Positions 10,894-56,705 of a stretch of 64,000 nt of DNA are shown piece after piece. The notes beneath the pieces are model-generated. The model ran no database searches, was not told the DNA's origin, and saw nothing but the letters and a program-made list of their open reading frames with translations. The DNA is taken from assembly GCA_002081555.1 (NCBI GenBank), contig KV921073.1:1-64000 (forward strand), in the 5' to 3' direction. Made by a program: the position numbers and the translations under genes. How positions within the stretch are numbered: position 1 is the stretch's first letter; the number at the start of each line of letters is the position of its first letter. This DNA is from Protostelium mycophagum. Lineage: Eukaryota; Evosea; Variosea; Protosteliida; Protosteliaceae.

Positions 10894-11415
10894 TTATGTA
10901 GTCAACAGCCTAAAACTCATTCTCCCTCTAAATATGTCCTCGTTTCTCTGGACGCATGTGATCCTCCCGTCTGGCACGCTGTAGATTGTTCCTGCAGGCG
11001 CACTACCGCCACCTTTTCCCACCAGAAAATCTAAGTTTCTGTGGCTACAGTCCTCACTGAATGTGTACAGTTCGTCTTCTATTGTTGGGATGTTATATAA
11101 AGTATCGGCGGTGAACATGACGGAGGCTCCGCTTCGTAAAGTATAACAAGTGCCTATGGAGCCGAGGACAGTGCGTAGGACGGCTCTGTCCTCTAAACAT
11201 CCATGCTCGAGGAAGCGACTGACAACAACTTGATTGTTTCTCATGCTGATCATCTCTGAAAAGGGTGCCTTTGTTGATGTGCGGTCATAGTTCCAGCAAT
11301 AATCCTGCAGAAGACTGTTTGTCGATTGCGTCTGATTGCATCGACCATCTGTATATGTTCCATAATATATGCTTGACTGCGCTAGACCAAAGAAGAGGAA
11401 GAGGAAGGTGATCAT
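10894..11415 (-). CDS. Secreted Cys-containing protein of unknown function
   Basis: About 173 residues from ATG at 11415. It opens MITFLFLFFGLAQSSIYYG, a classic cleavable signal peptide. The mature part has several Cys residues (GRCNQT, DYCWNYD, HGCLED, GTCYTL, EDCSH, ITCVQR), likely paired, plus a Gly/Ala/Pro stretch (GKGGGSAPAGTIYSV). A longer frame begins at 11505 but its extra 30 residues would bury the signal peptide, so the internal Met is preferred. It is divergent from the acid sphingomyelinase-like gene at 11855. Amoebae encode many small secreted Cys-rich proteins of this look; I do not recognise the family. Confidence 0.65.
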   Translation of the reverse strand: MITFLFLFFGLAQSSIYYGTYTDGRCNQTQSTNSLLQDYCWNYDRTSTKAPFSEMISMRNNQVVVSRFLEHGCLEDRAVLRTVLGSIGTCYTLRSGASVMFTADTLYNIPTIEDELYTFSEDCSHRNLDFLVGKGGGSAPAGTIYSVPDGRITCVQRNEDIFRGRMSFRLLTT

Positions 11416-11854
11416 CGTGGTCGTGTCTTGTTTCTTGACCGGTTGGTTGCGGTTTGTTCTCTGAAATTTGGAAAAGTTTAGGGCGGTGGATATGTCATCC
11501 ATCACTTTCTGGGAACTCAGTGACAGACACAGAATCTTTATAAGTCCCTGTGGCTTCGAGAAATAGACCGCCTGACCGCCCGTTCAGTATCTTGAATGCT
11601 GAAGACTGCGCAAAGTCGTCCAGACGGCCAGATGAAGCCCAATCGACAAATCATTTATTCGATTGAAGAGCTCCAATTGCTTCTCCGTGATTTTTGAGGA
11701 TGGAGGAACACCTGAGGGAGAAAGGAGATTTGGTGTTTGCTCGTTGTAGATGCATAATTTTATTTCCGAACATTTTCATCTTCTGGGGAAAAAAAAGGAC
11801 GTTTTTTCATTCTGTTCTGCAACCACGAGACCTTCAAGCGTCAAAGCTCTCAAC
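11416..11854. promoter_or_regulatory. Divergent upstream region
   Basis: About 440 bp separate the start of the secreted Cys protein (-) from the signal-peptide Met of the phosphodiesterase (+). It must hold both promoters and leaders. No clear TATA element or repeat stands out; a 5' leader intron of the + gene is possible. Confidence 0.4.
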
Positions 11855-37868: not shown

Positions 37869-38611
37869 TAAATTCGATGTAAAATCATTCTCCAGTATGC
37901 TCTGTGCTACATCGATTTATCAAGCAATTGGCATCTGACAGTTGGCTCATCTTTGACATCATGTCAACTTTCTTGCATAAACACTGCGCATCTTTCTTTT
38001 GAGGTTTTCTTCGATGTGCACATCTCTCACAAAATGAACCCAAGTAGCAAGATTCTACCTTGGTTCACAATGTCATACAGTCTGGAATCTAAAGCTATAA
38101 TACACGGAGATCAAGGATTGGACTACAACCACACATTTTGGCAAATCAAAAAAATTGTCAGAAGAAAATCAGACAAGGAACATGTACCACAAAATAAACA
38201 CAAGTGGCAAGATTCTACCTTGGTTCAAAATAAACACAAGTGGCAAGATTCACCTTGGTTCACAATGCCACATAGTCTGGACACAAAATAAACACAAGTG
38301 GAAAGATTTTACCTTGGTTCCCAATGCCACACAATCTGGAATCTAAAGCTACAATATACAGAGATCAAGAATTAGTCTACAACCACACATTTTGGCAAAT
38401 CAAAAAAAATGTCAGAAGAAAATCAGACAAGAAACATGTACTTCAACTTGTGACTGACTTCAACACAAACCTTCTATTGAAAAAATGAGAAAATAGATGC
38501 ACCATAAACTCATCAAAATATCCAATCAAGAGAAGAAAAAAGAACAAAAAAACTAGAAGTAAGAATATGAATCAAACACAACAGCAACACATACTCTGAC
38601 ACTTGTTGTCT
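37869..38611. repeat. Tandemly duplicated non-coding tract before the gap
   Basis: Two diverged copies of an approximately 150 bp unit lie at about 38,045-38,188 and 38,290-38,445. Both include TCTGGAATCTAAAGCTAYAAT and CCACACATTTTGGCAAATC. Between them, a short unit (ACACAAGTGGCAAGATTCTA...TTGGTTC) is repeated three to four times. Frames through the tract are short and repetitive, with no family resemblance. The tract stops at the N run, so the assembler may have broken here. Confidence 0.7.
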
Positions 38612-38711
38612 NNNNNNNNNNNNNNNNNNNNNNNNNNNNNNNNNNNNNNNNNNNNNNNNNNNNNNNNNNNNNNNNNNNNNNNNNNNNNNNNNNNNNNNNN
38701 NNNNNNNNNNN
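38612..38711. other. Assembly gap of exactly 100 N
   Basis: One hundred consecutive N, the usual placeholder for a gap of unknown size. The two sides need not be neighbours in the genome. Confidence 0.99.
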
Positions 38712-38772
38712 CCCTAAACCCTAAAACCCTAAACCCTAAACCCTAAACCCTAAACCCTAAACCCTAAACCCC
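38712..38772. repeat. Telomeric repeat array (CCCTAAA)n
   Basis: About eight copies of CCCTAAA, one with an extra A, directly after the N run. The C-rich strand reads 5' to 3' into the contig, as expected at the left end of a chromosome. CCCTAAA/TTTAGGG is the telomere repeat of plants and several protist groups. Confidence 0.95.
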
Positions 38773-38925
38773 GAGTATGTGCACATCTCTCTGTCAATCC
38801 TTCTTCAAGTTTAAAGACGCAGTCGACATTAATCCTCGCAATAGAGAAAAACAGAGACTCTGGGTTTTTAGAAAAGTTTTTGTTGGAGAATTTTAGGCAG
38901 GCTATTTTTGGTCTTTCCGGGCCAA

Positions 38926-39799
38926 GATGAGACCGGGGATGAAGGAGATATACAAAGAGGGTGTAGAGATACCACCAAGATGGCGGAGGATAATACAAGA
39001 AGAAAGAGGTGACAATAAGGATTTAGCTTCTTGCTGAATCATTTAGGCACACAATGGGTTGGTGAGATAATGGACGAAGTCGTCCAAAAGGCTGGAGAGA
39101 TCGTTTTCGAAAGATACATACAACGAAAAGTCGTTCCATTTGCCATTCAGCAAGCAAAGCGAGATTTGAATGTCGCCGTGCATTATACCTTTTGTCCTTG
39201 CGATCCACCAGAGGAGGATATCACAGAAGATCCAACCTGGTGTTTTGACACAGGTGGTCCTCTCATTCTCAATCTGTCTTCGTTGGCTCATAAATGTAGA
39301 GCCTGCGCGCATCGAGGTGGATTCCTGGGCAAGAGGAATATTATCAAAGAGACCCAAGAAAATTCAACAATTAGAATTCATTCCAAAGGACGCAACGTGG
39401 AAGGATTATGCCTCTTTCAGCTCTGGACCGAGTGGACTGCCCCAAACAGGACATGAAAGTACAGTCACAAAACGAACAACGAAGCACCCAACGAGCATAT
39501 CACCAGTAAACGCTGGCTACAGGTCGAATCACGACACAGCCTCGCGAAAAGTGAAGAGTGCGACCAGCGCTCTCACAACAAAATCAAACAGCAAAGATAA
39601 ACACTCGGAGGAAACGGTCAAAATGGAAACACTACGGCACGAGCTGAGAGGCAAAGAATATACTTTTACCTCGAGTGGAGAGATCGTGTTGGTATCAAAG
39701 ATAGATATGGACAGATTACCTACTAGAAGCCTTTCTGGAGGTGGAAACAAAGAAAGACCAAAGGACCTCCCTTCTCTTAAAGAAAGAGCATTCTACTAA
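38926..39799 (+). CDS. C2orf81-like protein (DUF4639)
   Basis: The first exon starts MRPGMKEIYKEGVEIPP and ends in a short intron before TQWVGEIMDEVVQKAGEIVF. Then comes ERYIQRKVVPFAIQQAKRDL, and later EDPTWCFDT spliced to EPARIEVDSWARG. This matches C2orf81 (human: [47 protein letters not shown]). The family is uncharacterised but is found mainly in ciliated or flagellated organisms. The C-terminal half is Ser/Thr/Lys-rich and probably disordered. The start is about 150 bp from the telomeric array, so this is a telomere-proximal gene. It ends KERAFY with a stop 19 bp from that of convergent NDUFB9. Confidence 0.75.
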
Positions 39800-54486: not shown

Positions 54487-56705
54487 TTACAGCAATGAAA
54501 GGAGCAGGGAGAGGATGACGAATACAGAGGCAGTCACCACAGAGGAGGTGCCGGTTGGTTGGCCTCCAGTTGTGCGAGTAGAGCGAGTTCCGTCTAAAGA
54601 GCTGGATGCTCCAGTGGGATTATTGTTGCTGTTGGTGGGGGTAGGTCCAGTTCCCTGGTTGGTCGTAGTTGTTTGACTTGGGGAGCCACCAGAACCACCA
54701 CTGACGACAGTGACAGGGGTGAGGGAAGCACCCGTAGTTGTGTAGGTGGCGAAGGTGGGAACTTTGCATGTGGAGGCTCCGAGAACGTTGCCTGAAGAGC
54801 CGCAGAGATTCTTTTGCAGGTCGGAGTTGACCGATGGGCAAGTTTGGGAGTCGACATTGCTGCATGTGGAGCAAATTTTGCCACAGCTCCCGGAAAGAGT
54901 TCCAACTGTGGCTGTGCATGATTGAGCGTTGTTGGTAACTTGGAACTTAGTGGCACTGACGAGACCAGTGAATGTGGCGGTGTTGAGGGCACCAGTGTTA
55001 AGGGTGACAGCACCAGCACATGTGAGATCCGGGGCGCTGATGGTGGTGATTGCATTTCCACTGATGGAAAGGTATGCGGTCTGGACAAGCTTGCCGAGAT
55101 TGACCGAGGTGAGGGTGTTGTCTGAAATCGAGATGGAAGGGGAGGACCATGAGGAGCCGGATGTTGCCGTGAGAGTCTGCAAACCGGTGTTACCGCTGAC
55201 AGAGAATACCGGGGTTGCGAAACTTGTGCTTCCCGCGGTGTAAGGAATACTGTTGGTGAATACGTTGGAGTTGTTCACGAGAGATCCGATGAATCCCAAG
55301 TTATTAAAGACAAGACTACCCAGGGTGTTTTGGGAAACGGTGAGGCTATCCGTAACGTATAATTGATTGAAGAGTACGGCTGCAGAGGAGGCACCCACAT
55401 TGTTGGTGAATTGGACCTGTTGGGCTCCTGCAAGACCGCTGATATCGAAGGTTGTGGTTGAGCCTTGGGTACCGGTAATCTGAAACTGTCCTTTAACATA
55501 GAAAGTGGTATTGGCAGCGAATTGTCCAGTGATAGAATTGCCGGAAAGTAGCAAATTGCCTTCAATGTAGAGGAGCTGGGGGAAGTACAAGTTGGAGAAA
55601 AAGTTGTTGTTTAACTGAACAGATCCGAAAGTGATGTTCTGAATTCCGATGACAGCGTTGAGGGGGCTAGATGCCTGTCCATTGGAGGTGAAAGAGAAAG
55701 GTGTGTCGGATGGGGCGTTGCTTACGAGTCCTTTTGGCATGTAAAAGCTGGTGAGTGAGGGGTTCCCGGTGATTTGGATGACATCATCTGCGTACTGAAG
55801 GTTGGCAAGAGAGATGCTGGTCAATCCATTGTTGGACTGAATGTTCACTGATCCGTTCATTCTGGTGAGTCCGTCAAAGGCGAGGGGGAAGGAACCTTCA
55901 TTGCTCTCAATGTTGATGCTCGAGAGTGAGACAGGGTTGAGGACAAGGTTCTCGATTTTGCGGTTGAGGTTGATCTTGAATTCATCAGCTACACTGAGGG
56001 GTGAGGGAATGCTCAGTCCAGAGAGAGAGTTGTTGGTGATAAAGATCTGGAAGGCGGAAGTGAGTTTAGGGAGAGAAACGGTCAAGCCAGTTTGTCCAGT
56101 GAGACCGTTCTGTGATATGGTCATAGTGTTGGTGCTGACCAAGTTGGGGAATGATACAGTTCCAACAGCTCCGTCCAAACCTTGGTTAGTTCCTCCACCA
56201 ATAGTGAGCTCTCCGTCTCCAGTTGACACAAGCCCGATGACACAGTTGGTGAGCTTCAAGTTGTTCTGGAAGACCACGGCAGCTGCTGCACCACTTTCAA
56301 GAGTGATAGGTCCTGGTGCAGAGAAGGTCTGGAGGTTGGGTGCGTTAATAAGTCTGAACACTCCAGAAGAGCCGATATTTGCAGTGAAGGTGGTAAGAGC
56401 GGGGAGGTCGATTTCGGTGGCAAGGGAACCATCGATACTGATTCCGAAGTCGGTGATGGTTGTCAAGGAGGGAAGGCTGATCTTATCGACGAGAGAACCC
56501 ACACCGAAGACAATACCAGGGAGTTCAGTACACGGAGAATAATTGGTCAGGTCTTGGGTGGAATTGATATAAGCCACCTGGTCAGCGGTAGAGGGACAAT
56601 TTACAGCGTAACCTTCAAGGGTCAGAATGCTTGCATGCGGACAAAGTAGTTACCAAAAGAGAAGCAGAGACCAAGAAGGAAGAGAGAGTACAGTGTGTGC
56701 TTCAT
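54487..56705 (-). CDS. Ecm33/Sps2-like GPI-anchored receptor-L-domain protein
   Basis: Two exons, 56654-56705 and 54487-56612. A signal peptide (MKHTLYSLFLLGLCFSFG) leads into NCPSTADQVAYINSTQDL and SPCTELPGIVFGVG, then many leucine-rich-like strand repeats (such as SLPSLTTITDFGISIDG, ISLANLQYADDVIQITGNPS), as in fungal Ecm33/Sps2 and receptor L domains. Near the end a Cys-rich block (CGKICSTCSNVDSQTC) precedes a Ser/Thr/Gly/Asn-rich stalk and a hydrophobic C-terminus (VVTASVFVILSLLLSLL), a GPI-anchor signal. About 715 residues. Likely a cell-surface or spore-wall protein; the ligand is unknown. Divergent from SAICAR synthetase. Confidence 0.82.

Follow-up and report, generated by a model that had tools for sequence, protein, structure and literature searches.

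A telomere-type repeat array beside a 100-N gap probably marks a chromosome end misplaced by scaffolding

In the bearded dragon, Pogona vitticeps, telomeric repeats found within one scaffold exposed a proven misjoin, and scaffolding had introduced an error of the same kind into a second scaffold (PMC12360841). In the GRAAL assembly of Trichoderma reesei, 100 Ns were intercalated between scaffolds and the orientation of telomeres was checked by hand (PMC5469131). On the inner (centromere-proximal) side of Arabidopsis telomeres, degenerate and variant repeats usually precede the canonical ones (PMC11406999). Interstitial telomeric sequences (ITSs), whose classes are described in PMC6410037, are inserted at repaired breaks according to a further report (PMC7215372). 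A literature search returned nothing informative on the telomere of the lineage studied here.

We compared these systems with a CCCTAAA array that abuts a gap within a 64-kb window (the whole stretch of DNA analyzed). As in Pogona vitticeps, telomeric repeats within a scaffold are taken to betray a false join; there Hi-C contact maps revealed it, and here the sequence was examined. As in the Trichoderma reesei assembly, exactly 100 N stand for an unsequenced join and carry no information on its length. The heptamer and its strand orientation are those of the Arabidopsis-type (TTTAGGG)n telomere, but the array spans only 60 bp, its inner side lacks a degenerate or variant zone, and the gene content of the window appears unlike that of a land plant. 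The array also resembles a short ITS (s-ITS) in being short, nearly pure and sharp-edged; however, one of its sides is a gap rather than unique sequence, whereas an s-ITS is defined by its internal position.

A gap of 100 N is a conventional placeholder, leaving the size of the missing piece unspecified. The sole run of N in the window, located at 38612-38711, is exactly 100 nt long by count, in keeping with published 100-N marker practice (PMC5469131). The initial annotation had started the feature at 38611; the feature itself holds, but that coordinate is one too low, 38611 being the last real base before the gap. Its description of exactly 100 N followed directly by (CCCTAAA)8 was borne out by the N count, Tandem Repeats Finder (TRF) and motif positions. 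The array occupies 38712-38771 on the plus strand (TRF: period 7, 8.4 copies, 96% matches) and begins at the first base past the gap, its opening letters being CCCTAAACCCTAAAACCCTAAA. CCCTAAA starts eight times, at 38712, 38719, 38727, 38734, 38741, 38748, 38755 and 38762. The second unit, CCCTAAAA, carries one additional A (an additional T on the G strand) and the rest are canonical, the longest perfect run comprising the inner six copies; the irregular unit is an extra A and not random decay. At its inner edge the array ends abruptly, closing in CCCCGAGTATG, and on its outer side it meets only the gap, with no unique flank.

CCCTAAA lies on the plus strand and TTTAGGG on the minus strand, and the C-rich strand runs 5' to 3' into the right contig from that contig's left edge, which is the orientation of a left chromosome end, as had been proposed. 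Elsewhere in the 64-kb window we found only single TTTAGGG/CCCTAAA heptamers, at 11477, 48075 and 56065, and no tandem pair of either. Since none of 100 first-order Markov simulations (64 kb each, same composition) produced tandem copies, the array is not a product of chance. A tandem array well above chance and a C-rich strand leading inward from the end, both seen here, are among the features of a terminal telomere, and a default-length gap, here exactly 100 N, is among those of a misjoin. Separately, five contigs of the IMG/VR viral collection were found to carry at least five exact tandem CCCTAAA units, apparently at contig-internal positions; these could reflect eukaryotic contamination or viruses whose genomes carry repeats of a telomere-like kind.

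At the other side of the gap, the left contig had been described as stopping in a local repeat, which its sequence contradicts. A 165-nt repeat, present in two copies that are 88% alike (38028-38192 and 38282-38446) with shorter partial copies between them (span 38028-38446), ends 165 nt short of the gap. The 165 nt with which the left contig closes (38447-38611) are 48% A and single-copy in the window. The further statement that this end is not telomeric agrees with our motif search, which found no telomere motif there. Because the left contig's end lacks such a motif, the junction is not, in its sequenced part, a head-to-head fusion point. Likewise, inverted arrays meeting at the junction, as in a fusion relic, were not seen, no TTTAGGG array being present at the left contig's end; a partner array inside the gap would escape notice. 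A 15-nt motif, ATGTGCACATCTCTC, occurs identically on both sides of the gap, at 38014-38028 and at 38777-38791, the right copy lying a few nucleotides after the array. We rejected it as a subtelomeric motif, its E value being 2.9 and the match being one of several chance-level matches of 15-17 nt.

These observations make it likely that a true TTTAGGG-type chromosome end has been set inside the scaffold by a wrong join, whether of neighbor or of orientation. We infer a wrong join because the observed array lies at a contig edge with its C-rich strand inward, the gap has the default length, and the left side is free of telomere sequence. The array's terminal position in the cell is likewise inferred from its unit, its strand, its near purity and its contig-edge position beside a default-length gap. 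The right contig would start at a real chromosome end capped with telomerase-made TTTAGGG-type repeats, and assembly would have halted within the array, where the repeat could not be resolved further and nothing lay beyond. Scaffolding would then have set this end beside that of the left contig, separating the two by the default 100 N, so that the join would be false either in its neighbor or in the orientation of the right contig. A chromosome end joined into a scaffold was already the reading of the initial annotation and is still the best one, with strand, purity, abutment on a default gap and the motif-free left side in agreement. Its claim of an unrelated contig fared less well: the join error stands, but unrelatedness is unproven, as the neighbor may be the right one with the right contig inverted, and both sides look like one genome.

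Several features nevertheless weigh against a terminal position. The array is just 60 bp long, its inner edge is sharp with no degenerate or variant zone, and there is no subtelomeric repeat inward of it, a gene starting after only 298 bp. Short or collapsed telomere arrays are usual in assemblies. The abrupt edge fits a young or healed end, and equally a short ITS inserted at a repaired break. The main alternative is that the two contigs are true neighbors and that an ITS between them, derived from break repair or an old fusion, broke the assembly. Short, pure, sharp-edged arrays would fit insertion at repaired breaks (PMC7215372; ITS classes in PMC6410037), and the gap could conceal a longer interstitial block. 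The visible 60 bp, however, would be easily crossed by ordinary reads, so the block would need to be much longer and to reach into the gap, and the left contig's edge bears no telomere motif. For a fusion relic, moreover, head-to-head and degenerate repeats would be expected. As for flanks, the right one is single-copy in the window and the left one consists of N only. A 60-bp interstitial array alone would not stop assembly, while a chromosome end must, nothing lying beyond it. We regard an ITS as unlikely.

We also examined whether the two sides belong to one genome. GC content is nearly equal left and right of the gap. A tetranucleotide permutation test of left against right gave p = 0.005 without masking and p = 0.003-0.008 with eEF2 and the gene at 54.4-57 kb masked, and several arbitrary contiguous splits scored equally high or higher. 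Because other arbitrary splits differ as much or more, nothing sets the gap apart from other positions, and a compositional break at this position was rejected. In addition, a coding-looking fragment in the left contig (33113-33206, QEPTTP...SPRYS) has a decayed copy in the right contig (54344-54416; 72% identical, E 1.7e-9). The likeness runs past a possible splice donor, and the pair is perhaps a recent duplication or a pseudogene fragment. Since composition is continuous and a gene fragment is common to both, the contigs probably come from one genome, as judged from their sequence.

This continuity of composition and the fragment found on both sides count against a misjoin and are compatible with the ITS reading; same-genome origin, however, does not establish that left and right are adjacent, and no gene model spanning the gap could be built. 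The same evidence bears on a further possibility, namely that a contaminant, a chimera or a mobile element with telomere repeats, rather than this organism's chromosome end, supplied the right contig or the array. Against contamination or chimerism, the right contig matches the left in GC and tetranucleotide content, normal spliced eukaryotic genes directly follow the array, and the fragment is common to both contigs. A mobile element is opposed by the lack of any mobile-element domain near the array; a transposon origin was rejected on the same ground, the ORFs near the gap being free of such domains. We consider this family of explanations very improbable.

Inward of the array lies an interval of 298 bp (38772-39069), which self-comparison showed to be single-copy in the window and without a degenerate repeat zone. 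It is followed on the plus strand by an intact two-exon gene for a 227-aa DUF4639 (C2orf81-like) protein at 39070-39799, with its ATG at 39070, its stop at 39799 and a 46-nt GT-AG intron at 39254-39299. The spliced model scored 35.2 bits against PF15479 (cut-off 27), a family to which we take human C2orf81 to belong. The DUF4639 gene faces, in a tail-to-tail arrangement, a three-exon gene for eukaryotic elongation factor 2 (eEF2) on the minus strand, from 40561 to about 43262 (phmmer, 1158.9 bits to 7old_C). Its first exon is approximately the ATG alone, and its introns were read from the sequence. We rejected the array as a telo-box or promoter motif of eEF2, whose start at about 43.25 kb is far from it. 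A search of viral contigs with eEF2 for a relative gave no match.

In a further alternative, this is a site where the protist's chromosomes are cut, by programmed or spontaneous breakage, and newly capped by de novo telomere addition in some nuclei or strains and left uncut in others, so that join and telomere are both real. Such healing would account for the sharp edge of the array and for the gene that lies 298 bp from it. However, only a single site is present, other addition sites were not seen in the window, and nothing found points to a lineage with such processing. We therefore hold it to be extremely improbable. Most likely, a telomere of the common TTTAGGG type has ended up at a join of the assembly through a routine scaffolding error, which is not new biology.

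For the assembly, this calls for correction, either by splitting the scaffold at 38612 or by turning the right contig around; chromosome count and synteny over the gap at 38612-38711 should not be trusted. The data weakly indicate that the telomeres of this protist are of the TTTAGGG type, and, equally weakly, that on at least one chromosome end the repeats and the nearest gene are separated by no more than a few hundred bases.

The flanks on both sides are ordinary intron-rich nuclear eukaryotic DNA, gene-dense to the right of the array, and probably belong to a protist of amoeboid or flagellate type. Domains in ORFs of the left contig include Copine, TPR, Ap4A phosphorylase and histone-fold, and those of the right contig, beyond eEF2, include phosphomannomutase, SAICAR synthetase, RabGAP and DEAD-helicase. 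Searches of the window gave no tRNAs and no Rfam matches. On the minus strand of the right contig, a 720-aa open frame (54490-56649), for which no Pfam match was obtained, repeats an LRR-like/receptor-L-like pattern, and its C-terminus is hydrophobic in the manner of a GPI-anchor signal. In the left contig, a small protein at 10897-11583 on the minus strand weakly matches the Dictyostelium counting-factor-associated family (22.6 bits, below the cut-off of 28.6), a match hinting that the organism may be amoebozoan. Tandem repeats with periods of 132 (two copies) and 59-65 occupy 454-872, close to where the window begins on the left.
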